Shown here piece by piece: positions 41,923-54,141 of a DNA stretch of 64,000 nucleotides. The DNA comes from Solimicrobium silvestre (GTDB lineage Bacteria; Pseudomonadota; Gammaproteobacteria; Burkholderiales; Burkholderiaceae_D), in the NCBI RefSeq assembly GCF_002976435.1, contig NZ_PUGF01000010.1, forward strand, positions 1-64,000, in the 5' to 3' direction. Numbering within the stretch: position 1 is the stretch's first letter; every line of letters begins with the position of its first letter. The translations under genes were made by a program, and so were the position numbers. Below the pieces are notes generated by a model, which saw only the letters and a list, made by a program, of their open reading frames with translations, did no database searches and was not told the origin of the DNA.

Positions 41923-42609
41923 CTATGGCGCAAATGAAACTTGATGTGCGTAGTAACGCACCTTGTTGTTGATAAACGCACCTGGATGTCCTGCAAATCC
42001 TACTTTAAGGCTGGTACTTTGAAAGTTTTTCAGTCCGGCTTGCGTGATCTGAGGCCCATCTTGCATTATCTCCGCATCACTCTTCGTATCGGGTCTCACG
42101 ATGGCAATATGGCCGGGTTTGTCGTTCTTGCGGTTTTTGTATACCGCAACAACCAAGTTACCTTGATTTGCGAGTGCTTGCGCCTCTATTCCAGATTCTG
42201 CTAAGCGCCAGCCTTGCGTGCTCGTTTCACCCGCTGCCAGCCAATCAAATTGGGCATTGGCTAATAAAATCGGGCTATGTTCTGGCGGGCGCAGAATATA
42301 AATACCTAACGACTTGGCGGCAGAAGCAACAAAGGCGCTGCAATGGGTATGTTTGCCAGATGTACCAACATGACGTCCGTCTGGCTCGCCACTCTCCCAA
42401 TTGACATGCACGCCGGCAGGCCAGTGCTGCTCGACGTGAAGATTATCAATTTGCGTTGCTAGTCGAAGACCATTTTCGGTTACGGGAGTAGCTAAAGCCC
42501 CTGACGACAAGATAAACATAACCAAGGTTAGAAAAAAGCTGCAAAGTTTTATTCGTACCGCTGACATAGTATGGATTTTTCTATTAAGTATTGAAGTTAC
42601 GTTTTTCAT
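41923..42609 (-). CDS. Secreted NlpC/P60- or CHAP-like cysteine peptidase-like protein
   Basis: The protein has a signal peptide (hydrophobic stretch LCSFFLTLVMFILSSGALA, cleavage near ALA|TP). A likely catalytic Cys lies in KHTHCSAFVASAAKSLG and a His in GHIAIVRP, the pattern of NlpC/P60 and CHAP-type amidases and peptidases that act on the cell wall. The role is inferred from this arrangement only. It has 228 residues from ATG 42609; ATG 42567 gives a shorter signal peptide. Its neighbours do not indicate the substrate. Confidence 0.65.
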   Translation of the reverse strand: MKNVTSILNRKIHTMSAVRIKLCSFFLTLVMFILSSGALATPVTENGLRLATQIDNLHVEQHWPAGVHVNWESGEPDGRHVGTSGKHTHCSAFVASAAKSLGIYILRPPEHSPILLANAQFDWLAAGETSTQGWRLAESGIEAQALANQGNLVVAVYKNRKNDKPGHIAIVRPDTKSDAEIMQDGPQITQAGLKNFQSTSLKVGFAGHPGAFINNKVRYYAHQVSFAP

Positions 42610-42624
42610 CGATCAAATTATTAG

Positions 42625-42770
42625 TTTGATATAGGAAGCTTCAATTAATTTCAATGAAAGATATGAGATAGGGGATCAATACGCGCAGCGTATTGCACCG
42701 TTCTATGTCACCTAATATGTGGCGAATAGATGAGTCCCATTGCGTCCAGCCTTGTGCGTCTTATCGCGTT
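42625..42770. repeat. ~300 bp intergenic repeat, copy 2 (right half)
   Basis: Matches the right half of the element at 43569: TGATATAGGAAGCTTCA, AATGAAAGATATG, TATGTCACCTAATATG, and AGATGAGTCCCATTGCG then CTTGTGCGTCTTA. The left half is absent. It lies just downstream of the HepT gene, on the other side of the HepT/MntA pair from copy 3, in the same orientation. Confidence 0.75.
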
Positions 42771-42812
42771 AAATCGGTAAATATTCCTTATTTCTTGCGC
42801 ATCAATTCACGG

Positions 42813-43184
42813 TTAGTGATGAGGGTGATCCAAATTATTCAACAGCGTTACGATTTGTTGATGCAACACGGGAAGGTCGTTTTGAATCATGTTCCAGACA
42901 AGTTCCAAATCCACTTTATGGTAGGCATGTGCCACGCGATTGCGCATTGCATAGATTACTGACCAAGGAATTTCACTATGTAGCGCCGCGAAATCTGGAG
43001 CGAACTTTACGATATTATTTGATGCTTCACCGACTATCTCAATATTGCGTATGACTGCGTCCTGAATCATTTCATTGTTGAGAAACACAACTTCATCCAA
43101 GTCTTCAATGTAACGGTGAATACGTTCGATGGCTTGTTGGATATGCCCAAGGTAATCCGGCACCCGTAGTTCATTTTTGCTCAT
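42813..43184 (-). CDS. hepT: HepT-like HEPN toxin (DUF86)
   Basis: HEPN-domain RNase of the HepT/MntA toxin-antitoxin class. The active-site motif RX4HXY is complete in RNRVAHAY (about residue 82), and the Tyr is the known AMPylation target. The surrounding helices include YLGHIQQAIERIHRYIEDLD and IRNIEIVGEASNNIVK. It has 123 residues, typical. It overlaps its partner by four bases, with the antitoxin first. It is a probable defence or stabilisation module. Confidence 0.9.
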   Translation of the reverse strand: MSKNELRVPDYLGHIQQAIERIHRYIEDLDEVVFLNNEMIQDAVIRNIEIVGEASNNIVKFAPDFAALHSEIPWSVIYAMRNRVAHAYHKVDLELVWNMIQNDLPVLHQQIVTLLNNLDHPHH

Positions 43185-43471
43185 ACTGGCATAGCCTCAA
43201 CAAGAACAGTGGCACGGAATTTGTCAGGCAATGCTCTAGGTGTCAGAACATCCACTGTCACACCTAACAGGAGTTCTAATTCAACCTGAATCGCAGCCAC
43301 ATCCATGAGTGTCGTAGTTGAGGTTGGGTCGATCAAAATATCCAAATCACTGCCATCAGTATCATTACCATGCACAACTGAGCCGAACACCCGTGCATTG
43401 ATGGCACGATGGGACGCGACAATCTTCCGAATGGAGTCCCTATGCATGTTTAGCGCGACTGACGGTTTCAT
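43181..43471 (-). CDS. mntA: MntA-like nucleotidyltransferase antitoxin
   Basis: Minimal nucleotidyltransferase that neutralises HepT by transferring AMP to its Tyr. The catalytic motif GSX10DXD is complete: GSVVHGNDTDGSDLDILID. It has 96 residues. It precedes hepT and overlaps it (ATGA), the usual order of the pair. Copies of the ~300 bp repeat lie on both sides of the module. Confidence 0.9.
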   Translation of the reverse strand: MKPSVALNMHRDSIRKIVASHRAINARVFGSVVHGNDTDGSDLDILIDPTSTTTLMDVAAIQVELELLLGVTVDVLTPRALPDKFRATVLVEAMPV

Positions 43472-43568
43472 ACGATTTCCTTCTTGTGAATCTCTGAATA
43501 GAAACTGTATTCAGAGTGCGATCTGGACGATTTTTTATGGTGTCACAGACATTTTCAATATAATCTCG

Positions 43569-43868
43569 GAAAAAGTATCCTCGTCAAATGAACGGATGTC
43601 AAATCCTGTGCACAGAAGGTGTTGGCGTTGGGCAGATTTTAATACTTGCGAAAGTAATTGAGCTGACACCCATTCGTTAAAGAAAATTAAATGCGAAGCA
43701 GGTGCACAGTAAGTAGCCTGATATAGGGAGCTTCAGTTCACTGCAATGAAAGATATGTGGTTGGGCGTCAATAAACGCAGGGCATTGGGCCGCTCTGTGT
43801 CACCTAACATGCGGCGCAATAGATGAGTCCCATTGCGCCCTACCTTGTACGTCTTACCGCGTTTGGTT
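43569..43868. repeat. ~300 bp intergenic repeat, copy 3 (full length)
   Basis: The full element: the left half is shared with 38109-38272 and the right half with 42625-42770. It contains no long ORF. It lies upstream of the mntA start in the same orientation as copies 1 and 2. I see no transposase or obvious terminal inverted repeat, so its nature is open. Confidence 0.75.
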
Positions 43869-43970
43869 ATTCTACGGACCAAACAGTTTTATTAGACAGT
43901 CCAAAGAAAATTAGATTTTGGATGCTCTATCGTACCTCTGCAAAGTTCCGACAAGCGACCTTCATCCGAC

Positions 43971-44129
43971 TTAATCAGAAGTAGGTAGAACAGGGGCGAC
44001 ACTAACTGTCGGAGGTCGCTTAACAATAATCATATTCGTACTCAACGGCGCTACTCCAGTTTGTTTTACTGCGAGTTCCGGAACTGCTTTGCGTCGGTCT
44101 ATCGGTTGCGGATGGTTAAACCAAAACAT
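43971..44129 (-). CDS. 52-residue small protein, unknown
   Basis: Not in any family I recognise. A strong Shine-Dalgarno (AAGGGGG) lies six bases before the ATG, so translation is likely. The protein begins MFWFNHPQPIDRRKAVPELA, has a Pro/Val-rich C-terminal half (VKRPPTVSVAPVLPTSD) and no Cys. It is about 240 bases downstream of the kinase gene on the same strand, after a 61-base repeat. It may be a substrate, adaptor or effector of the four-gene operon, or an unrelated orphan. Confidence 0.5.
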   Translation of the reverse strand: MFWFNHPQPIDRRKAVPELAVKQTGVAPLSTNMIIVKRPPTVSVAPVLPTSD

Positions 44130-44256
44130 TGTTTTCCCCCTTGTGCAATTATTAAATAGTGACTCTTCAATCGGATACGAGTGGCTATATTGTGCGGTTT
44201 TCGTTATTCACAATTCGTGCGCGGTGATGAATCGTTAGTTCAATCTTACGATTTTT

Positions 44257-44317
44257 AAGTTGCTTAATTAAAACTTTCAGCAAAGATCACAGCAGTATTT
44301 AAATATTGGCTATGCCC
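44257..44317. repeat. 61-base repeat, copy 1
   Basis: Shares 57 of 61 bases with 62121-62181. On the minus strand it lies between the kinase stop (44370) and the 52-residue ORF. The adjacent ATGCCC...GGGCAT (44312-44329) plus TTTTT forms a terminator-like hairpin on the plus strand. The element may be a promoter or regulatory region used by small minus-strand genes at both sites. Confidence 0.75.
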
Positions 44318-44369
44318 TGTGCTGGGCATTTTTACCGAGCGATGAATAAATTTTAATCGCGATCGAATC

Positions 44370-46802
44370 TTAAGTTTTGGCCGGTAGCCGCTGCCCAAGT
44401 TCGCGAATTTGCCGCATCAGTAAATAGTCCGGTAAGAAGCGCCAGATGGCTATGCCGATGGCAGCGGCGATGAACAGGAAACTGACTGATCGGCTAAAAA
44501 ATCGTATAGCGAATAATGCAATTACAGCTAATCCAACACCAAAGCTCAAGGTTGAGCCGTTAACCCAGCCAGCGGTAATGGCGCGATGTTCGCTCAGGCT
44601 ATTCACTTTTTGCATAAGCTGGTGAACGATGTGCTCGCTTCGTAATACCGATTTTTTCATCTCCAGCCAAGTCGAATCAACCCGGCCAGAGGAGCGAATT
44701 TGTGCAATATGCTCGAAGTAGTTGTCGCAGATGCGCTGTAGCTGTTCGCATTCGTCAGTGCTTAGCATGTGGGTGTCGGTGAGCTGACGTAGTTCGGTCA
44801 GAATGTCGCTGACTTCCTGTTTGAGTTCCTGGAAATCGTATTGTTGTTGTTCTTGTTTACGTTGGTTGGTTTTTATTTGGCGCTCGGCAGCGAGTCTGGC
44901 TTCGGGTAACAGGTTTTCTGTGACGAGCAAGTCGGCGCTGCTCATAGTGCGTGGGTCGCCCAGATCGGCTAGCCATGGGCAATTTACAGTTAAATTGCCG
45001 ATTTCGGCAAAAACGCGTTGCCGTAGTCGTTCGGCCCAGTTTTGGTCGTAGCAAAACGCCAGAATGCGGGCGTGCATGGCGGACAGTGGCGGGCGACTTA
45101 ACGCGTCGCTGCCGTACATGAGTTTATCAATGTTAGGAGCTTGAGCCGAGTCATGTGACGCGTTGATGATGGTGCTAACTTTTTGCCAGGCGCTATTGAC
45201 TTGATCAATTGCGGCGGTCCAGCGCTGATTGACTTCACCGGCAGTTTGATTACCCGCCTGAGCGTAAATGTCCAACACGCGATACTGATATAAATCATGC
45301 AGCCAATGCGCGGCTGCGGCGTCCCCTTTTAATGCCAGATTGGCTTGCGACAGAATAACTGGCAAGGCGATGCTTTGCGCGTGCCAGATCGGCGGTATAC
45401 CTGGTGCCAGATGCAGGATCAATTTAAGTAATTGCACATCGACCGATTGTATCGTGTTGCTGCGCATGTCTAGCAATAAGCGCACGGTGTTTTGGTCTTT
45501 TTGTACATCGCGAAACCAGGCCAGTAATTGGCCGTTCGAGATGTCGGCCACACCTTGTTCCCAGTGCTGTGCGAGAGCCACGCCGAGTTGTTCGGGTTGA
45601 TGGCAGCGTTGTTCGCCGATGTGGTAGGGCTGATTGAAGTTGGATCCGAGGCTAGAGCTAGAGCCGAGTTGTTCATTAAGCGGATCTGCCAACGTTGTAT
45701 CACCGGCCAACCAGCGCTGTAATTCGCTTGCGCCCCAGCGCAGTTTTGGGTCACGTTGCAATAGGCCGCGAGCCAGTTTATTTATTTGCTTATCTTGAAT
45801 GCCGGTGGTGGCGATATTGCGGGTGGTTAGGTGATGCAGGATTACGGCGTCCGACAAACCGGCAAACGGATGCACGCCGGTGGCGGCTTCCAGTGTGATG
45901 ATGCCGAGCGCCCAATAATCAGCTTTGGCGTCAATCACGCCCGATAAACTCTCGGGCGCGGCGTAGGGCAGGGTGCGTGCTACGCCGGTAAAACGTTGAG
46001 TGGCATTCAGTACCGAGGCAATGCCGAAATCGGTGAGTACCAGATCAAGCGGTTGTTCGCTGCGGATTAAAATATTTTCCGGTTTTAAATCACGGTGTAC
46101 CAGACCGGTAGCGTGTACCGCAGCCAGTGCAATCGCCAGTTCTTGTACGATGCGACGCACGATGTTTGAAGGTAGCTGGTCTGGATATGTACCGCGATAT
46201 TGCTCAAGTAGGCGGCGCAACGAGCCACCTTCGCAGAGTTCCATTAACTCATACGCATAGCCATCTGAGACGCCAGCTTCCAATACGTCGACCCGATGTT
46301 CACGTGCGATATTGGCAATTCGCTGTTGAATTTCTGGCTTGGGAAGAATGCCGTGCCGGTAAATTTTGGCGACTAAAATTGCGCCACCAGTCAGTGCTTG
46401 TACCAGTAATAATTCGGCTTCGGCGCCACGCGCCGGCATGGTTTCGGTGATGCGGTAACGTTTGCTGAGTTGGCTGGGCAGGTTGATCAGGTTGGTGATC
46501 GTACCGGCCGTAGTAACGGCTTGTACAGATGTTTGTTGAGTAGCGGGTTTAGTGAGTGGTCTATCACAATACAGGCAAACTAAACTGCCCGCAGGATTAG
46601 GTTGGCCGCAATCGGCAAACGGGCAAAGCAGCGTGTCGGCAGCGTTTTTAACCGGTGTCGGGTTGGATTTTACTTCAACGGCTAATGCGGTTTTACGGAT
46701 TAAATCAACGCCCGCCAACGGTGTACCGCATAGGCAGCGCATGATCTCGGGCTGGTGTTCGGTGCCGCAACTTGGGCAGCGGCGCAGGTAAGTGGTTCCC
46801 AT
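44370..46802 (-). CDS. Membrane-anchored Ser/Thr protein kinase with zinc ribbons
   Basis: Eukaryote-like protein kinase. Two zinc ribbons open the protein (CPSCG...CLCG at 9-27 and CPFADCG...CLYCD at about 61-80). The kinase domain follows (about 115-370) with HRDLKPENIL (about 232), DFGIAS and APES; the Gly-rich loop is degenerate. A helical region of about 350 residues links to two membrane helices (about 745-790), leaving a short C-terminal tail. It has 810 residues. It starts immediately after the radical SAM stop (TAGATG) and ends the four-gene operon. Its targets are unknown. Confidence 0.88.
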   Translation of the reverse strand: MGTTYLRRCPSCGTEHQPEIMRCLCGTPLAGVDLIRKTALAVEVKSNPTPVKNAADTLLCPFADCGQPNPAGSLVCLYCDRPLTKPATQQTSVQAVTTAGTITNLINLPSQLSKRYRITETMPARGAEAELLLVQALTGGAILVAKIYRHGILPKPEIQQRIANIAREHRVDVLEAGVSDGYAYELMELCEGGSLRRLLEQYRGTYPDQLPSNIVRRIVQELAIALAAVHATGLVHRDLKPENILIRSEQPLDLVLTDFGIASVLNATQRFTGVARTLPYAAPESLSGVIDAKADYWALGIITLEAATGVHPFAGLSDAVILHHLTTRNIATTGIQDKQINKLARGLLQRDPKLRWGASELQRWLAGDTTLADPLNEQLGSSSSLGSNFNQPYHIGEQRCHQPEQLGVALAQHWEQGVADISNGQLLAWFRDVQKDQNTVRLLLDMRSNTIQSVDVQLLKLILHLAPGIPPIWHAQSIALPVILSQANLALKGDAAAAHWLHDLYQYRVLDIYAQAGNQTAGEVNQRWTAAIDQVNSAWQKVSTIINASHDSAQAPNIDKLMYGSDALSRPPLSAMHARILAFCYDQNWAERLRQRVFAEIGNLTVNCPWLADLGDPRTMSSADLLVTENLLPEARLAAERQIKTNQRKQEQQQYDFQELKQEVSDILTELRQLTDTHMLSTDECEQLQRICDNYFEHIAQIRSSGRVDSTWLEMKKSVLRSEHIVHQLMQKVNSLSEHRAITAGWVNGSTLSFGVGLAVIALFAIRFFSRSVSFLFIAAAIGIAIWRFLPDYLLMRQIRELGQRLPAKT

Positions 46803-47477
46803 CTATGAGCGCCAGGAAGCTGAGTCAAACGTTACGCCGCGTTCCTGGCAAAGTGCTTCCAACGCTGCCATATCACCGCGCGCGGGTATGCCGATGTACC
46901 AGACTTTTTTTCCATCAAGCATGGCTTGAATGTGTTTACCAGATTCAACGACGCTGTTGTTTAAATACGGCGCGTACTTTTGTTCAGCGCGAGCGGAAAG
47001 TAATTGCAATGACTGATTGGAAGAGCCGCGCCATAAGTCGGTGAGCGGTTTGTTATCGATATAGGGTTCCGGAATTAATGCATCCAGTTTGGCTAAAATG
47101 GCCGAATGATTTTTTTGTAGTGTAGTCAAGGGATAACCGCTGTAACAGAGAATATCAAAGCCGTGCTGACTGCTGGTACGCCATTGATGCAGGCCGTCGA
47201 GTAAGGCACTTAATGCGGCAGGCTGGTCAAATGGTTCGCCACCGGAAATGGTGATGCCATCCATTTCTTGAGCGTCGCTGGTTTGTTTGCACCATGTTAG
47301 TAATTGCGCCACCGTCATCAGGCGGCTAGGCGTGGCGTCCCAAGTGTCTTGCGAGACGCAGTTTTTACACCCGATAGAACAGCCTTGCAGCCAGATGCCG
47401 ATGCGTCGACCCGGGCCGAGAACGGTGACTGGGAAGTGCGCTTTGTTAATATTAATTTTGGTTTTTGAATTCTGCAT
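46803..47477 (-). CDS. NrdG-like radical SAM protein
   Basis: Radical SAM activating-enzyme type protein. The [4Fe-4S] motif is CSIGCKNC (Cys33, Cys37, Cys40) in the NrdG-type spacing CxxxCxxC, followed by ISGGEPFDQ. Its 224 residues and layout match the anaerobic ribonucleotide reductase activase fold, but no NrdD-like reductase is nearby, so another partner is likely. It lies 8 bases after the AAA+ gene and abuts the kinase gene. The likely substrate is a protein or peptide in the same operon, but this is inference. Confidence 0.85.
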   Translation of the reverse strand: MQNSKTKININKAHFPVTVLGPGRRIGIWLQGCSIGCKNCVSQDTWDATPSRLMTVAQLLTWCKQTSDAQEMDGITISGGEPFDQPAALSALLDGLHQWRTSSQHGFDILCYSGYPLTTLQKNHSAILAKLDALIPEPYIDNKPLTDLWRGSSNQSLQLLSARAEQKYAPYLNNSVVESGKHIQAMLDGKKVWYIGIPARGDMAALEALCQERGVTFDSASWRS

Positions 47478-47485
47478 ACGCTAGT

Positions 47486-49342
47486 TCACGATATTTCCAG
47501 CGTTAATTCGATTACTTTATCCTGCTCGCTCAACTGGCTTACCACCAGCCGCTGGCGACCATCCAGATCATGTTCAAACAAAGCACGTGAAAGCGGATTG
47601 ATAAACGCCGCTTCCAGTGCATTACCTATGCCGCGTCCGCCATTGGAAAGATCACGCACACAGCGTTCCAGCAAGGCGCTACGTACCGTGGAGGGCATGC
47701 TTAATTGCAGTTTGAATTGCTCATACAAACGCCGTGCGATATTTTTTAACATGCCGTCAAAAATACGTTCCGCGACATCTGGCGTGATGAAGTTGAACAC
47801 CACAATGTTGTCACCTATGCGGTTGAGTAGTTCCGGCCGCGCCAGTTTGAATTTGAAATAATCTTCAATCGAACTGCGGATTTTTGTCTCTACCAGTTCA
47901 TACGGATCGTCGGCTTTTACCTGCTGTTGGCGCACGCCCTGGCGGTCTTCTACAAACACCCCTAAGTTAGACGTGAAGACTAAAATTGTTTCAGAAAAAT
48001 AGGCGGTTTCGCCACGGCCATCGGTAAGGCGGCCGTCTTCCAGAATCTGTAAAAATTTATCCAGAATTTGCGGGTGGGCTTTTTCGATTTCATCAAACAG
48101 CACCACCGAAAATGGTTTTTCTCGTACCGCATTGGTCAACTCACCACCGGCATCAAAACCGACATAACCGGGCGGCGCACCTAGTAAGCGCGCACCGCTG
48201 TGCTGCTCGGCAAATTCGCTCATGTCAAAGCGCAGATAAGCGCGTTCGTCGCCAAACACCAGTTGCGTTAAGGTCTTGGCCAACTCGGTTTTACCGACAC
48301 CGGTAGGTCCTGCAAAAAACAGCACGCCACGTGGACGGCTGCCGCTTGATTTGGCTTGCGCGCCAGTCAAGCCCATCACCGAGCGTTTTAAAATATCCAG
48401 CGTTTTCACCACCGCCGGATGCTGACCTTTAACTCGCTCCTCAATAAAGGGCAGTGCGTCGCGGATTTTTTCGCGTAAATAATCTTTGCGCCACGGGTTG
48501 TCCAGCGCGCCTAACTGATAGCAGCGTACCGCATCATCAATGTCACTGATGCCGAGTAGTTGCCGGTCGGCCAGCTCGGTAATGTCTGACAGCGCCGTTA
48601 AACTCATGCCTTCCGAACCTTCGGCAAAGCGGTTTAAAAACTGCGTTTGCGCTGCGGTACTGGCAACGCTATAACCAGCAAATAAAGGTGCTAATTGCTG
48701 GGCGCTGGCATGGCGGGTTTCGTAATCGGGTTTGCCTATCGCTAAGCTGGCGATGCGTTCGTTGTCCAGCGTGTACCAAGTGGGTAAATCTTGGGCGCGA
48801 TTTACCAGCCACAGCACCGGGTTGTAGAGTGGGCGCTGGTGCTCACCAACGCGGTTGGCGGCATTCAGCGTGACGATAGGGCTGGAGGTCAGCGCCAATT
48901 TTTCTGCCGCGATAAAAAAGCGATATTCGGCTTCACTCAAATGCGCGGCTTCGCGACTCAGGCGCGAGGCAAAATCAATCACCAACGCACAGCGCGCTTC
49001 GCGTTGCGACACCAGGTTTTTCATGATGTTAGTGAGCGTTTCCAAACTTACGATCTGATTGCCGGTTTTGAGTTTTACATCAAATAATTTTTCAGCCGAT
49101 TCACGCGCCGCCAGTTCATCGGGATAAACGCGCACGCCATCGGTCGGGTCGTAGATCAGTAAAAATTGATAGTCACGCGCTTTGAGGGATTCCCATAAGG
49201 CGCGGATGAACGGCACCAATGTAGCTCCGCTATCGGTGGCTGCTAAAAAACTGTCGTGTATGCTGCCGGAAATCACAAATTGTGAACGGATCGGAAGCAG
49301 CCGTTCCAGATCAAGCTGCCAGCGCGGTAAGGGAAGAGTCAT
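47486..49342 (-). CDS. ClpB-like AAA+ ATPase
   Basis: AAA+ unfoldase-like ATPase. The C-terminal half is a ClpA/ClpB D2-type module: Walker A GPTGVGKTELAKTL (about 344), YLRFDMSEFAEQHSGARLLG, Walker B FDEIEKAHPQILDKFLQILE (about 412), sensor 1 LVFTSNLG and the C-terminal small domain. The N-terminal about 290 residues may be a second, degenerate AAA-like fold without a Walker A (VISGSIHDSF, then CALVIDFASRL). It has 618 residues and no Clp N-terminal domain, so it is not ClpB itself. It overlaps the preceding gene by four bases. Confidence 0.88.
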   Translation of the reverse strand: MTLPLPRWQLDLERLLPIRSQFVISGSIHDSFLAATDSGATLVPFIRALWESLKARDYQFLLIYDPTDGVRVYPDELAARESAEKLFDVKLKTGNQIVSLETLTNIMKNLVSQREARCALVIDFASRLSREAAHLSEAEYRFFIAAEKLALTSSPIVTLNAANRVGEHQRPLYNPVLWLVNRAQDLPTWYTLDNERIASLAIGKPDYETRHASAQQLAPLFAGYSVASTAAQTQFLNRFAEGSEGMSLTALSDITELADRQLLGISDIDDAVRCYQLGALDNPWRKDYLREKIRDALPFIEERVKGQHPAVVKTLDILKRSVMGLTGAQAKSSGSRPRGVLFFAGPTGVGKTELAKTLTQLVFGDERAYLRFDMSEFAEQHSGARLLGAPPGYVGFDAGGELTNAVREKPFSVVLFDEIEKAHPQILDKFLQILEDGRLTDGRGETAYFSETILVFTSNLGVFVEDRQGVRQQQVKADDPYELVETKIRSSIEDYFKFKLARPELLNRIGDNIVVFNFITPDVAERIFDGMLKNIARRLYEQFKLQLSMPSTVRSALLERCVRDLSNGGRGIGNALEAAFINPLSRALFEHDLDGRQRLVVSQLSEQDKVIELTLEIS

Positions 49343-50445
49343 AGCGGAATCTCTCGTGATAATAAGGGCGCAGAAGTGCGAGCGTCTTCATGTTCGGCAA
49401 ACTGCGGCAGCAAATCTTTATTCACTAATTGCACCGGCAATTCGCCCGCCTCTAAACGGCGTGTGACATTTAATCCTAAGCCGCATGCTTCCAATGCTTT
49501 TAACAACGCAGGAAATTCGGCGCACCAGCGGTCTTCTGCTAAATGATCGAGCACGCTGCGTTCGTTGCTGGCATTCGTTACCGAGCGAATTACATTGAAA
49601 TTGGCCGTGCCGGTGGCTTCATTAATGCGCATCCGCACCATATAGGCGCCCCAGTCATGCCGCCGGAAATGTACTACGCCGCCTTCTACAAACAAGGTAG
49701 AACTGAATTCTTCCACTTGATACCCCAAATCTTTGAGCGACTGTTGCAGTACCAGAGCAGTCGCCTCCTGCACCTGCTGTTGCTGGGTTTGTTCCAGATG
49801 TAGTTGAATTTGTCGGCGCAATTCGGAAGTGAGTAGCTCTGCGCGCTCGGTTGGCAGATTACGATTCAATTGCTGCGCTAATTGTTGGATTTGCTGCGGT
49901 AATGCGCCCAAGTGAGCGATGCGCGCTAACAGGCGCGCCGCGGTTTGCATTACTGCATCCGATTCTGGCTCTACTTCGCTAGCAGCCAAGTTGGCAAATT
50001 CCTGAAAAGCTGGAGTCTCATCGCTGCCCGTGCTACCCATTAGGCGGGCAGATTCAGTCAGTAAAATCGATTTTAATTCGGCGCTATAACTTTGCAGCGT
50101 GCGCAGATACGAGATCAGTGCCGCGTCATTGTCATTAGTAGTGTCAGGACGAGTCGGGCGGCCCGCCAGTATCCGTTCGGAAGCACCAAGGCTGTCGGCT
50201 AACTGACTAAGCTGCGCAAATTCAGCTTCGCTTTGCGCTAATTGTTGCAACATAGCCTGTTGCCCTTGCAGATTGGCGGCGTGCTGGGTTTGCAGTATCT
50301 GGCCGTGCTGCGCAGCATGTTCAGCTGCTAAGGCGGCGCTATCTTCGTACCCCTGGCGGATAGCCATCGCTGCGCGAATCCCCGCAGCCGAAAGCAGGAG
50401 GGCAACCGGGTCAGCAACAATAATGGCGGTGGTTGGGCCGCTCAT
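49339..50445 (-). CDS. Coiled-coil protein, first gene of kinase/AAA+/radical SAM operon
   Basis: I do not recognise this protein. A hydrophobic N-terminus (about 7-30, IIVADPVALLLSAAGIRAAMA) could insert in the membrane. Long Gln/Ala/Leu-rich coiled-coil segments run over about 40-240. The C-terminal 120 residues look alpha/beta (FSSTLFVEGGVVHFRRHDWG, then NFNVIRSVTNASNERS). It has 368 residues. It overlaps the AAA+ gene by four bases, so it is the leading gene of the operon and probably a structural partner or scaffold. Confidence 0.7.
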   Translation of the reverse strand: MSGPTTAIIVADPVALLLSAAGIRAAMAIRQGYEDSAALAAEHAAQHGQILQTQHAANLQGQQAMLQQLAQSEAEFAQLSQLADSLGASERILAGRPTRPDTTNDNDAALISYLRTLQSYSAELKSILLTESARLMGSTGSDETPAFQEFANLAASEVEPESDAVMQTAARLLARIAHLGALPQQIQQLAQQLNRNLPTERAELLTSELRRQIQLHLEQTQQQQVQEATALVLQQSLKDLGYQVEEFSSTLFVEGGVVHFRRHDWGAYMVRMRINEATGTANFNVIRSVTNASNERSVLDHLAEDRWCAEFPALLKALEACGLGLNVTRRLEAGELPVQLVNKDLLPQFAEHEDARTSAPLLSREIPL

Positions 50446-50575
50446 GAATGATTAACGTAAAAAAGAAGGGATAACATGCGTGATTATTCGCCTATGTCGT
50501 TTTCTGGTAGGGGATATTTAACCATGAAACGCTGCAACATAGAAGTTGGGAATGCTTGAATTGGATTGGAAGTAG

Positions 50576-50800
50576 CTATTCAGTAATTACGTTGTTGAAT
50601 TGCCTCTGCAAGCAACGCTTCTTTTCTTTTGTTAAGCCATGTTTGTAGCTCTGATATTGGAAGTGGACGACTGAAAAATACCCTTGAGCGATATCGCAGC
50701 CATTAATACGTAAGAACTCCAGCTGCTCAGCAGTCTCGACTTCATCAGCAACTACTCTCATGTTGATTTCATGTGCCATTTCAATGGAGGTAGCGGCAAG
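50576..50800 (-). pseudogene. Remnant of an EAL-domain phosphodiesterase
   Basis: The reading frame LAATSIEMAHEINMRVVADE then VETAEQLEFLRINGCDIAQGYF matches the last about 45 residues of an EAL domain (canonical VVAEGVET and GYFFSRP). The C-terminus is altered (YFSVVHFQYQ), the start is lost, and an in-frame stop lies seven residues before the matched region, so the gene is dead. Upstream minus-strand sequence to about 50900 has traces of related coding. The rest to 51208 shows no gene. Confidence 0.75.
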
Positions 50801-51208
50801 CTAAAGGCTGGCATCGCCAGTTTGGGCGACGCAAACGAAAAATCCAGCGCACGTTCTTTTCGCGGCATTGATAACTATGCTAGGCGAGTAACATTGGATG
50901 CATGATCGGCGTAGTTTTCTAAAGTAGATTTGATGCCGTTTATTCAGTCATCTTCCAGCTCTTTAATAGCAGTATTTTTATTCTGCGCATTGTGATTTCT
51001 TTTGCTTGGTATCGAACCATTATTTTCAGAACTATCGAGCTAGCCCCTCCATGCATACAAGGCACGCACGTCCTTACCTTACATGACTGCCTGCTTTCCA
51101 TATGGGTACGGCCCGTCACGCAGAATCTGATATTGCGATTATCAGTACTGGTGCATGATGGTGTGAATCAAATCCAACAAATCATCCGTTAAAGTTTTAT
51201 AAAAATGG

Positions 51209-51257
51209 TTGATATTGTCATTTAATGTGTGCATAATAATTGATATTGTCAATTAAT
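51209..51257 (+). promoter_or_regulatory. Paired direct repeats upstream of the O-methyltransferase
   Basis: TTGATATTGTCATTTAAT (51209-51226) and TTGATATTGTCAATTAAT (51240-51257) differ in one base and are spaced 31 bases apart, about three helical turns, as expected for two operator sites on the same face of the DNA. They lie about 130 bases before the methyltransferase ATG. No regulator is adjacent. Confidence 0.55.
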
Positions 51258-51386
51258 TTTATAGGGTAATCCGTAGATATGGGCCTTGCTTTCAGGCGCT
51301 TACAACGCAAACCAATAAAATTAGGTGATAGGTCTTATATGCCGTGTACGTTGAACTTTCTTACCTATATTTAAAAGGATAAATGT

Positions 51387-52046
51387 ATGTCAAATAAAAC
51401 GCTGAACCTTAATGAAACTCTGTACCAATATATATTGGATCACTCAATTCGTGAACATCCGGCGCAAACGGCATTACGTGCCGCTACGGATACTCATCCG
51501 TATGCGCAGATGCAGATTTCGCCAGAGCAGGGACAGTTCATGGCGATGTTGGTAAAACTATTGGGAGCGCGTCGCACCATAGAAATAGGCGTATTTACTG
51601 GCTATAGTGCGTTATCCGTAGCGTTGGCGCTGCCCGATGACGGTAAGTTACTTGCATGCGACATTAGTGATGAATATACGCGGATCGGAAAACCGTTTTG
51701 GGAGCAGGCCGGAGTGGCCCACAAAATTGATCTTCAATTGGCGCCAGCGCAAAGAACACTTGATGCGCGTATTTCTGCAGGAGAGTCTGGTCAATATGAT
51801 TTCGCATTCATTGACGCGGACAAATGTAGTTACGACGGATATTACGAAAGCTGCCTGCAATTGCTACGCAAGGGCGGACTGATCGCCATCGACAACACAT
51901 TGTGGAGTGGAAAAGTAGCCGCCCCATCAACGAGTGATGACACGACTGCCTTGCAGAAATTTAACATCAAACTGCATCGTGATGAGCGCATCGATTTATC
52001 ACTTCTGCCGATCAGCGATGGATTGACGTTAGCTCTCAAACGCTAG
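51387..52046 (+). CDS. SAM-dependent O-methyltransferase (COMT/CCoAOMT type)
   Basis: Class I methyltransferase of the Methyltransf_3 family, normally acting on catechol-type hydroxyls. The SAM motif begins TIEIGVFTGYSALSVALALP (about residue 62), and the divalent metal site includes FAFIDADKCSYDGYYE (Asp) and AIDNTLWSGKV. It has 219 residues, the expected length. It stands alone between the operator-like repeats and the hairpin at 52074. The substrate is unknown. Confidence 0.9.
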   Translation: MSNKTLNLNETLYQYILDHSIREHPAQTALRAATDTHPYAQMQISPEQGQFMAMLVKLLGARRTIEIGVFTGYSALSVALALPDDGKLLACDISDEYTRIGKPFWEQAGVAHKIDLQLAPAQRTLDARISAGESGQYDFAFIDADKCSYDGYYESCLQLLRKGGLIAIDNTLWSGKVAAPSTSDDTTALQKFNIKLHRDERIDLSLLPISDGLTLALKR

Positions 52047-52073
52047 CAATGCAGACCAATCATCAAACGTTAA

Positions 52074-52170
52074 GACTTCCGCAAATTGACCAAGCTATAT
52101 TACAATTTCCTTGCTGCAATGCGCGCTGTCCGTGTTGGTGTTCATTGCTGGAACAAGTTTACGTAAATCC
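52074..52170. repeat. Intergenic hairpin repeat, family A (copy 3)
   Basis: GACTTCCGCAAATT at the left and GCTGGAACAAGTTTACGTAA at the right correspond to the ends of the element at 11440. The centre is longer and more degraded. It lies between the O-methyltransferase and the CocE-type hydrolase. Confidence 0.5.
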
Positions 52171-52206
52171 AAAATATAACTTAAACGCTCAATAATAAAT
52201 CTAAAA

Positions 52207-54141
52207 ATGAAACAGTCATCCTCCAAATGCAAAGCACAAGTGCTGTTATCTATCGTGTTGGCAGTATCTACCACCTTCACCTATGCGCAATCAAACCAAA
52301 GCAAATTAACCGCAATCTCGCCAGATGACGTAGCGAGCTATGATTTTGTCCGACCAGAAGCGGACTACGTTAAACGTGTTCAGATGATCCCGATGCGGGA
52401 TGGCACCAAACTGTACACCGTTATCGTCATGAAAAAAAATGTCACCAAAGGGCCAATACTGTTGTCGCGCACACCCTATGACGCCAAGTCGTCAACCACG
52501 CGCACCAGAAGTCAATTGATCACTGAAATTCTGCCCGCAATGGACGCTGAATTCGTAGCAGACAACTATATTCGGGTTTATCAGGATATTCGTGGCACGC
52601 ACAATTCTGAAGGTGACTTTGTTATGGCTCGCCCAATTGTCGGGCCACTCAACAATACCGGTGTGGATGAGGCAACAGATGCGTACGACACTATCGATTG
52701 GTTAGTTAAGAATGTCCCGGAAAGCAATGGCAAAGTCGGCACTATTGGCAGTAGCTATCTTGGTTTCACCACGCTGAACTCGTTAATCAATCCGCATCCG
52801 GCACTGAAAGCGGCTGTTCCGCAAAGTCCAATGGTCGATACCTGGATAGGCGATGACGATTTTCATAATGGTGCTTTCCGTGTCCCAACGATGGATTTCA
52901 TCGTTGATCAAAGCACGGACAAAGCAAATGCTGGCGCGCAGGTTGGGTTTGGCGTCGGAGACGATTACACCCGCTATCTTGAAAGCGGATCAGCTGGTGA
53001 CTATGCACGAAAATGGGGAATCGATCTTTTCCCAAACATGCAGAAAATTTTGCAAAACCCGGCTTATACAGAATTCTGGTCATTGCAAGCCGTTGATAAA
53101 TGGCTGGCGGCACGGCCGCTTACTGTGCCAACGATGTTAGTCGTAGGTCAGTGGGATCAGGAAGATTCTTATGGCGCGCCTGCGGTCTACAAAGCGATCA
53201 AACCTAAAGACAAGAACAACGACATGGTGACGCTAGTGATCGGCCCATGGCGACACTCAGGTGCAAATCATTACGGTTATGGTTTAGGAGCTCTAACTTT
53301 CACTGGTGACACAGCCTTGGAATTTAGGGTCAACTACTTGAAGCCGTTTTTGGATCATTACCTGAAAGGCGCGTCCGATCCGCATACGCCTCATGTCCTT
53401 ACGTATGCAACAGGTTTAAATCGTTGGGATATATCGCCTAAATGGCCAATGGGGACAATGACGCCGCTCTATCTTGGTCAACACTTCAGTGCAAGCTTCA
53501 AGGCAGACAATTCGTCGGGTCATAATGATTATGTTTCCGATCCATCCAAACCTGTTCCCTTTTTACCTCGGCCTGTCAATTTGGGTGATGAGACAAGCTG
53601 GAAATCATGGCTGGTGCATGATCAGCGTTTTGTCTCTGATCGTCCGGATGTATTAGTCTACAAAACTCAAGCATTAGACAAACCAATTCATATTATGGGC
53701 GAACCTTTAGTCGATCTATTCGCAGCCACATCTGGCACAGATAGTGATTGGGTAGTCAAACTAATTGATGTCTTTCCAAACGTGTCACCAGAACCGGCAG
53801 AGCAAGGTTCCAAACCAAGCATGGCTGGCTTTGAACTCCCAATTGGCATTGAGATTTTCCGCGGTCGCTATGTTCATGGATTTAACAAACCACAAAGTTT
53901 AACCGCGGGAAAAATCGAGGAGTACAAATTTGGTTTGCCTAATGTTGATCACGTCTTTTTGCCAGGACACAAGATAATGATTCAAGTCCAATCAAGCCTA
54001 TTCCCGCTGTATGATCGCAACCCGCAAACCTATGTTGACAATATTTTCAATGCGAAAGCAGAAGATTATAAGTCAGCAACTGAGAGTGTTTATTATGGCG
54101 GTGAAAATGCGAGTAGCGTTTTGTTACCGCTTGTTCCCTAA
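52207..54141 (+). CDS. Secreted CocE/NonD-type hydrolase
   Basis: Exported serine hydrolase of the S15/X-Pro dipeptidyl peptidase and alpha-amino-acid ester hydrolase superfamily. A signal peptide ends near TFTYA|QSN (about 27). The nucleophile is the Ser of GSSYLG (about 182), in an alpha/beta hydrolase domain with YQDIRGTHNSEGDF. The C-terminal jelly-roll (PepX_C) covers about residues 450-640. Length is 644 residues. Substrates could be peptides, N-acyl esters or beta-lactam side chains; none can be chosen from sequence. It could be exported to the periplasm. Confidence 0.88.
   Translation: MKQSSSKCKAQVLLSIVLAVSTTFTYAQSNQSKLTAISPDDVASYDFVRPEADYVKRVQMIPMRDGTKLYTVIVMKKNVTKGPILLSRTPYDAKSSTTRTRSQLITEILPAMDAEFVADNYIRVYQDIRGTHNSEGDFVMARPIVGPLNNTGVDEATDAYDTIDWLVKNVPESNGKVGTIGSSYLGFTTLNSLINPHPALKAAVPQSPMVDTWIGDDDFHNGAFRVPTMDFIVDQSTDKANAGAQVGFGVGDDYTRYLESGSAGDYARKWGIDLFPNMQKILQNPAYTEFWSLQAVDKWLAARPLTVPTMLVVGQWDQEDSYGAPAVYKAIKPKDKNNDMVTLVIGPWRHSGANHYGYGLGALTFTGDTALEFRVNYLKPFLDHYLKGASDPHTPHVLTYATGLNRWDISPKWPMGTMTPLYLGQHFSASFKADNSSGHNDYVSDPSKPVPFLPRPVNLGDETSWKSWLVHDQRFVSDRPDVLVYKTQALDKPIHIMGEPLVDLFAATSGTDSDWVVKLIDVFPNVSPEPAEQGSKPSMAGFELPIGIEIFRGRYVHGFNKPQSLTAGKIEEYKFGLPNVDHVFLPGHKIMIQVQSSLFPLYDRNPQTYVDNIFNAKAEDYKSATESVYYGGENASSVLLPLVP

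Follow-up and report, generated by a model that had tools for sequence, protein, structure and literature searches.

The 64,000-nucleotide stretch of Solimicrobium silvestre (Burkholderiales) that was analysed here (contig NZ_PUGF01000010.1, positions 1–64,000; hereafter the window) contains, on the minus strand at 44370–50445, a cassette of four genes that almost certainly form one functional unit. In the order of transcription, the genes encode a coiled-coil protein (CC), a Clp-type AAA+ protein (AAA), an NrdG-like radical S-adenosylmethionine (SAM) protein (rSAM), and a zinc-ribbon Ser/Thr kinase (KIN). AAA and rSAM are present in all three cassette architectures described below, CC with its Met-Ser-Gly-Pro N-terminus is found in types 1 and 2, and the effector-like part varies: a membrane-tailed kinase in type 1, a protein with a pseudokinase, DUF4011, a superfamily 1 (SF1) helicase, and a restriction-endonuclease-like domain (REase) in type 2, and a Mokosh-like helicase with a PIN protein in type 3. 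The sequences show that parts are exchanged around an AAA–rSAM core, and control of these parts by the core in a modular fashion is rather probable.

Conservation and spread of the cassette

The N-terminal half of AAA, used as a query, retrieved 217 relatives from a genome collection; the 80 best-scoring ones were retained as loci and analysed with six-frame open reading frames (ORFs) and profiles; loci with enough flanking sequence by our thresholds were regarded as evaluable. Type 1, which is the type of the window, comprises 57 loci (L032–L088), and type 2 comprises 22 (L089–L110). Type 1 is complete in 43 of 45 evaluable loci, always in the order CC–AAA–rSAM–KIN, with L072 (CC and KIN not found) and L083 (rSAM and KIN not found) as exceptions, and in 48 of the 57 when the flank is disregarded. 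Type 2 is complete in 18 of 19 evaluable loci, in the order AAA–rSAM–large protein–CC, the exception being L089; one further locus, L111, contains all four genes in a different order and enters neither count. In the window, CC and AAA overlap by 4 bases, AAA and rSAM are 8 bases apart, and rSAM and KIN abut with zero gap; the corresponding medians, taken over all 48 complete type-1 loci, are -4, -4, and +3 bases. The pairwise distances of the four proteins in these loci correlate with r of 0.84–0.95, as shared descent alone would also make them do.

In a separate draw from the order, AAA was carried by 12 of 399 genomes. All 10 evaluable carriers are complete: seven of type 1 (the window genome, G039, G1114, G1092, G1013, G1032, and G1039), two of type 2 (G723 and G1298), and one of type 3 (G1083); the remaining two are cut by contig ends, with CC and AAA left in G1055, and CC, AAA, rSAM, and the start of KIN in G1060. 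This draw overlaps the 80 loci in several genomes. The four-gene set stays together, and few genomes carry it. A previous interpretation of the window from its letters alone (the sequence-only reading) had delimited the same four genes with the same spacing, which the ORF list matches, and had proposed one functional unit that would be refuted if the genes occurred separately in most genomes; the search of the neighbourhood and its spread came out in favour of the proposal. Chance adjacency is rejected by the order kept in the evaluable type-1 loci, and the notion that the genes are fortuitous neighbours with unrelated roles, in favour of which nothing was found, is contradicted by order conservation, coupled spacing, and completeness in the order draw, leaving it a negligible probability.

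By record titles, type 1 is mostly betaproteobacterial (Gallionella, Sideroxydans, Undibacterium, Rhodoferax, Azonexus, and others), with a few loci elsewhere, e.g., in Methylococcaceae, Chromatiaceae, and Desulfuromonadaceae; the titles of L060 and L065 (Mycobacteriaceae and Rhodospirillales) clash with the betaproteobacterial cassette that they contain. Type-2 AAA was found in 6 of 199 genomes of the genus of G690, which was taken as Pseudomonas from the 97% match of one member to the Pseudomonas protegens AAA of L106. A class-wide search with CC found only 4 of 369 genomes, the window genome included, a low yield that probably reflects fast divergence of CC. The phylum-wide profile of the AAA N-terminal half matched 296 of 398 genomes at 0.001; among the matches listed, nearly all are short, lie on the end of the model (~255–332), and fall in ClpB-size proteins, and the seven genomes at E 3e-40 or better were taken as real.

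The cassette seems to move as a unit, because it occupies two unrelated sites in Sapientia, the genus to which the window genome (5.24 Mb) belongs together with Sapientia aquatica, and because a congener has an empty site. In S. aquatica and G003, the cassette follows cphA; in S. aquatica, it is placed, over ~6.6 kb, with cphA on one side and an isc-like operon on the other, the isc call coming from gene sizes and order, with a Pfam test on the class-V aminotransferase only. The congener G002 has 94 bp from cphA to the next called ORF and no cassette, and in the window genome, the interval after cphA has a 207-amino-acid ORF, the cassette being carried by a different contig, at a site that adjoins two topoisomerase-like genes and that three congeners do not share. 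The post-cphA interval is thus variable in Sapientia: empty (L151:9347-9441), with the 207-amino-acid ORF (L150:9957-10580), or with the cassette (L010:5301-11441). A link to cyanophycin was rejected, cphA standing beside the cassette in the two Sapientia genomes and on another contig in the window genome. Among 72,556 plasmid records, 19 cover at least 80% of AAA.

Component proteins of the cassette

The coordinates of the four genes and their main features are listed in Table 1.

Table 1. Genes and protein features of the cassette, in window coordinates (aa, amino acids).
Feature	Position	Strand	Evidence
CC, 368-aa MSGP coiled-coil protein	49339..50445	-	ORF list, AlphaFold2 model, HHalign
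Met-Ser-Gly-Pro N-terminus of CC	50434..50445	-	SGP 69/73, control 0/344
AAA, 618-aa Clp-type AAA+ protein, D1 predicted degenerate, D2 intact	47486..49342	-	Pfam, NCBIfam, alignment, model
Walker A of D2, GPTGVGKT	48287..48310	-	invariant 62/62 rows, first T 59/62
rSAM, 224-aa NrdG-like radical SAM protein	46803..47477	-	Pfam, NCBIfam, alignment, PDB sequence match
CX3CX2C cluster motif of rSAM	47358..47381	-	three Cys invariant 53/53
GSxNQ motif of rSAM	47013..47027	-	G, S, N, Q invariant 53/53
KIN, 810-aa zinc-ribbon Ser/Thr kinase, C-terminal membrane segment	44370..46802	-	Pfam, alignment
Two Cys4 zinc ribbons of KIN	46566..46778	-	Cys in 51/52 rows (one gap); weak Pfam match
Kinase domain with Lys, HRD, DFG-Asp	45717..46460	-	Pfam; residues in 52/52 rows
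C-terminal hydrophobic (membrane) segment of KIN	44445..44558	-	sequence reading; 47/50 kinase rows

The Pfam matches of AAA, AAA_2 (1e-47) and ClpB_D2-small, both lie in the C-terminal half; in the N-terminal half, no AAA-domain Pfam match and no Walker A were found, the first domain (D1) not having been searched apart. In an alignment of 62 rows, duplicates included, D1 has SGxxxD at the Walker A position, and the second domain (D2) retains both Walker motifs (A and B), sensor 1, a pore loop with GY, and the region of the Arg finger. The whole-protein model (predicted local distance difference test, pLDDT, 86) aligns over ~630–750 columns, gaps included, with ClpC, ClpB, and ClpA, and the best 50 rows of the fold search have E-values of 1e-31 to 8e-27 and template-modelling scores of 0.45–0.57 by query length. 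This alignment with the two-ring Clp proteins makes a degenerate AAA+ ring the most likely identity of D1. Two stacked domains, an intact D2, and an aromatic pore loop place AAA in the Clp/Hsp100 group of AAA+ proteins, the evidence for D1 coming from the whole-protein fold match, and the ClpB-like unfoldase with a degenerate N-terminal half that the sequence-only reading had described agrees with these results. AAA resembles ClpB, ClpC, and ClpA in its D2 ring, GY pore loop, and two-ring fold, but its D1 has no Walker A and its score is far under the ClpB cut-off; identity with ClpB was rejected on 251 of 1232 bits (TIGR03346), obtained over residues 299–603 only, with Walker A in D2 alone. 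No ClpP-binding tripeptide was seen by eye, and unfolding without degradation is therefore our guess.

The Pfam match of rSAM is Fer4_12 (4e-25). The protein is termed NrdG-like rather than NrdG because it scores 87.5 bits with the NCBIfam NrdG model, under the cut-off of 126.1. Both the CX3CX2C and GSxNQ motifs are invariant in 53 of 53 sequences that span all three types, and the cluster motif predicts membership in the radical SAM superfamily. No NRDD or Gly_radical protein was detected in seven genomes (six of which are carriers), within the sensitivity of the two models, which were positive in 6 of 14 (NRDD) and 3 of 14 (Gly_radical) control genomes. Because no glycyl-radical enzyme was found in any of the seven, rSAM is regarded as an orphan activase, as the earlier description of an NrdG-like activase without its reductase had it, and a canonical NrdG/NrdD pair was rejected on the score and on NRDD in 0/7 genomes. 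rSAM shares CX3CX2C with NrdG and the PFL activase, matching the NrdG model and having the PFL activase as its best PDB sequence match, but differs from NrdG in being longer than the 154-position model, in its score, and in the glycyl-radical enzyme that its genome appears to lack.

CC of the window has no Pfam match above cut-off. Its AlphaFold2 model (pLDDT 86, poor at residues 136–161) has a strand at residues 2–11, long helices, and an alpha/beta domain; the conserved C-terminal alpha/beta domain corresponds to residues ~240–347. A fold search against the PDB gave nothing at E 0.001 (best 0.13), and most PDB sequence matches of the CC profile (best E 3e-4) fall on coiled-coil segments. The C-terminal domain is common to CC of types 1 and 2 (HHalign probability 98), and no match between the two types was found in the region from Ser-Gly-Pro (SGP) to this domain. 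The most distinctive feature of CC is its N-terminus. Of the 80 loci, 73 have a detected CC, and SGP directly follows the start in 69 of these, the other four being two SAP, one SGA, and one fragment; among 344 non-core control genes, SGP follows the start in none. The choice of the CC start favoured Ser-Gly, which occurs in 15 of the 344 controls, and did not favour Pro. The SGP codons vary synonymously across CC genes, which argues for selection on the protein.

The SGP N-terminus is the only candidate substrate feature found for rSAM, and it is possible, although doubtful, that rSAM acts on CC. In one alternative account, the cassette would serve peptide or protein modification, with rSAM modifying the MSGP protein (or with its own radical product as the active species), the ATPase as a loader, and the kinase as a regulator. 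The orphan NrdG-like enzyme with its invariant cluster motif and an SGP start conserved despite synonymous codon variation speak for such a role, but a SPASM domain gave no Pfam match in rSAM of the window and type 3 retains rSAM without SGP, so that this account is unlikely.

KIN matches the Pfam kinase family PF00069 (3e-33), and its zinc ribbons match Pfam weakly in the window (E 0.07). The KIN alignment has 52 rows (46 locus rows and six seed rows, five of which duplicate loci), and type-1 KIN retains the VAIK Lys, the HRD Asp, and the DFG Asp in all 52. These catalytic residues predict an active Ser/Thr protein kinase. With the zinc-ribbon cysteines and a hydrophobic stretch near the C-terminus in 47 of 50 rows, the membrane-anchored Ser/Thr kinase with two zinc ribbons of the sequence-only reading is upheld.

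Related architectures

The type-2 large protein has ~2,100 amino acids and contains, in the two proteins scanned, a kinase-like domain, DUF4011, an AAA_11/AAA_12 helicase, and an MTES_1575 REase; zinc-ribbon cysteines are visible at its N-terminus in the alignment. In all 24 aligned sequences, both the VAIK Lys and the DFG Asp have been lost from the kinase-like domain, and the helicase Walker A and DEASQ motifs are present in 20 of 20. In the example L090:12459-18692, the pseudokinase stands between the zinc ribbon and the DUF4011 helicase, a placement conserved in the 24 aligned proteins.

Type 3 comprises L026, L027, L028, and L031, which are plasmids identified by annotation, and L197, identified by profiles. 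Its content is a helicase, a PIN protein, a different coiled-coil protein, AAA, and rSAM; the Pfam and PADLOC scan, which covers the L026 helicase and PIN protein only, gave an MkoA-like helicase and a PIN_4 protein, and the PIN match of L197, which falls into two pieces of 85 and 44 bits, is weak. Eight plasmid records comprise two of type 2 (L024 and L030), four of type 3, L025 (Aristaeella), which is a composite with annotated kinases, an FHA protein, and a phosphatase, and L029 (Geminocystis), in which AAA and one rSAM lie ~9 kb apart. The exchanged parts would act as effectors.

Two further variants were observed. In a Desulfuromonadaceae metagenome-assembled genome (L086:12420-17656), a zinc-ribbon/SH3 protein that has no kinase domain lies beside CC–AAA–rSAM, with TrkA/RyR and SLATT genes after it, and L165:8839-11841 encodes a cassette kinase with C-terminal WD40 repeats in a cluster of rearranged order.

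Proposed mechanism and alternatives

The four proteins may form a single signalling complex that is associated with the membrane and belongs to a modular family. In such a complex, AAA would be a hexameric threading motor, with D2 gripping the substrate and D1 acting as a binding platform, and rSAM, having no glycyl-radical enzyme, would act on a partner within the cassette, most simply CC. A signal, such as an invader product, protein damage, or oxidation, would change CC, which the AAA motor would then bind or remodel, thereby activating the effector. This role would fall, in the window, to the tail-anchored KIN, which might phosphorylate cell proteins and slow or stop the cell. We give about an even chance to this general idea of a modular complex for signalling or conflict, whose exchangeable effector is gated by a Clp-type motor together with a partner that the radical SAM protein modifies. 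A more specific version is speculative and rather improbable: an immune or stress switch that is based on a radical but has no glycyl-radical enzyme, in which rSAM puts a radical or covalent mark on the Ser-Gly-Pro of CC, the mark is lost on infection, oxygen, or nitric oxide, and the Clp motor reads the loss and releases the effector, be it a kinase, a helicase–nuclease, or a PIN RNase.

Defence against phages or other invaders is the likeliest purpose of the cassette, at about even odds. The defence-type parts of the relatives (helicases and nucleases related to Hhe, ProA, and Mokosh), the carriage on plasmids, and the probable type-2 genes at a Pseudomonas aeruginosa defence hotspot (see below) count for defence. 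Several observations weigh against a conflict complex of this kind. To our knowledge, no experiment on this cassette exists. Neither a nuclease nor any other domain of obvious toxicity is present in type 1, and the type-3 coiled-coil protein is without SGP and not detectably related to CC, so that SGP cannot be the sole target of rSAM. None of the 149 phage records with a match covers 80% of AAA, and phage carriage was rejected accordingly. Known defence systems are often clustered in islands; no PADLOC family was found at 1e-20 in more than one nearest-neighbour protein of the cassettes (63 of 74 type-2 and 98 of 192 type-1 neighbours, without a matched control), and the commonest cluster of flanking genes of at least 100 amino acids within 6 kb occurs in only five of the 80 loci. 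Lastly, a DUF4011 gene of P. aeruginosa, which probably belongs to type 2, is reported from every isolate (PMC10250203), and this suits a housekeeping or stress role.

An alternative is proteostasis or envelope-stress signalling, in which the Clp motor would sense aggregated or damaged protein, rSAM would report iron–sulfur or oxygen status, and the membrane kinase would relay the signal, without any link to phages. The two-ring Clp fold of AAA, the missing recurrent defence neighbours, a KIN with active-site residues and a membrane tail, the apparent iron–sulfur assembly (isc) operon that adjoins the cassette in S. aquatica, and the P. aeruginosa gene just mentioned are consistent with it. 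The patchy spread of the cassette (12/399 genomes of the order) and its relatives on plasmids are at odds with such a role, in which the nuclease and helicase parts of the relatives also have no obvious place, and we regard it as possible but less than likely.

If the AAA–rSAM core is a common control unit for varied effectors, the cassette would represent a new type of signalling or immune system in bacteria, which combines a Clp motor with an activase without its usual target. The orphan NrdG-like proteins that accompany AAA ATPases, both chromosomal and plasmid-borne, would gain a role, the genes flanking a P. aeruginosa defence hotspot might be accounted for, and the Ser-Gly-Pro N-terminus offers a concrete candidate substrate.

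Genomic surroundings of the cassette

A HepT/MntA-like pair (42813–43471) adjoins the cassette in the window, both proteins scoring under the NCBIfam HepT and MntA cut-offs. It is bracketed by a direct repeat of ~150 bp (42622–42770 and 43714–43863, 79–89% identical), which has four matches in the whole window genome and none in the three congeners. The repeat-rich surroundings claimed by the sequence-only reading are real in this one repeat, and weaker elsewhere, the other repeat families around the cassette being short; its use of HepT/MntA proximity as a hint of defence is a weak argument because no neighbour cluster in at least three loci has HepT size. A functional link between the cassette and HepT/MntA is likewise unsupported. 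The adjoining pair and the relatives on plasmids would suit an addiction or plasmid-maintenance module, with the kinase as toxin and the other proteins as its control; four large genes with no small antitoxin among them, and the same lack of a recurrent HepT-sized neighbour, make such a module very improbable.

Directly upstream of the cassette, a short ORF (50576–50779) resembles, by eye, a remnant of an EAL-domain protein. No Rfam family reaches its gathering threshold at 42000–52500, and G+C shows no clear break at the cassette. The promoter and terminator scan tells little, because promoter-like sites (3) are fewer than the shuffle mean of 8.9 and terminator-like sites (16) are somewhat more than theirs (9.8).

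Single PADLOC matches near type 2 are an AbiE pair beside L089 and ZorD-, PDC-S06-, and PDC-S31-like proteins; near type 1, they are methyltransferases, a cysteine desulfurase scoring as DndA/SspA, and DEDDh-, DpdF-, DrmC-, mad2-, PDC-S48-, PsyrT-, and SngC-like proteins. The pair at L089 is AbiEi/AbiEii (L089:6640-8227), at a locus that has AAA and a partial rSAM, with KIN and CC not found.

Comparison with known systems

The kinds of components are known, and their combination fits none of the systems compared. No named system of this composition was found in PADLOC-DB 2.0.0, NCBIfam 20.0, or the accessible literature, largely open-access and apart from bioRxiv preprints, in keeping with the earlier statement that no such system was known.

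Hhe, ProA, and PDC-S37, which are anti-phage helicase–nuclease proteins with DUF4011, resemble the type-2 relatives. The L090 large protein, whose best PADLOC and NCBIfam matches are PDC-S37, ProA, Hhe, and MkoA, matches along its helicase–REase part (464 bits for PDC-S37, 464 for ProA, and 310 for NCBIfam Hhe), but lies far under the cut-offs (ProA 1500, Hhe 2000) and additionally has a zinc ribbon, a pseudokinase, AAA, rSAM, and CC. Membership in Hhe/ProA was rejected for the window, no DUF4011–SF1 helicase–REase being present in its proteins. Mokosh is approached by type 3, in which the L026 helicase matches MkoA with 340 bits; Mokosh is listed with a phospholipase D (PLD)-like domain (PMC10952713), whereas L026 instead has a PIN protein, plus AAA and rSAM. 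The window has no MkoA-type helicase and no PLD, and Mokosh was ruled out there, KIN matching PADLOC MkoA with 78 bits in the kinase domain only (residues 112–365). BREX PglW, MADS MAD6, and PD-T4-6 were also ruled out, since the best 25 of 36 PADLOC matches all fall inside KIN residues 107–366, and the NCBIfam MAD6 and PglW models score KIN under cut-off.

At the right flank of the P. aeruginosa defence hotspot cDHS1, a DUF4011 gene is reported to stand beside a radical SAM gene (PMC10250203). These genes probably represent type 2. We take the putative set to be PA2725–PA2728. Two papers describe PA2727 variously, as similar to a DNA helicase in one and as a histidine kinase in the other.

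The closest published idea found is that of the FtsH ternary NTP-dependent conflict systems, which are described as combining AAA+ motors of the FtsH/MoxR kind and vWA proteins, with a radical SAM domain among the effectors (PMC7159879). The window cassette differs in having no vWA match and only a weak MoxR match to AAA (15.8 bits against a cut-off of 27). The kinase/PP2C/vWA triads, which are presumably TerY-P-like, come near the cassette from the side of the kinase. Like KIN, their kinase is described as a zinc-ribbon Ser/Thr kinase (PMC7159879); the window cassette has no vWA or PP2C match, and the Aristaeella relative carries an annotated phosphatase together with kinases.

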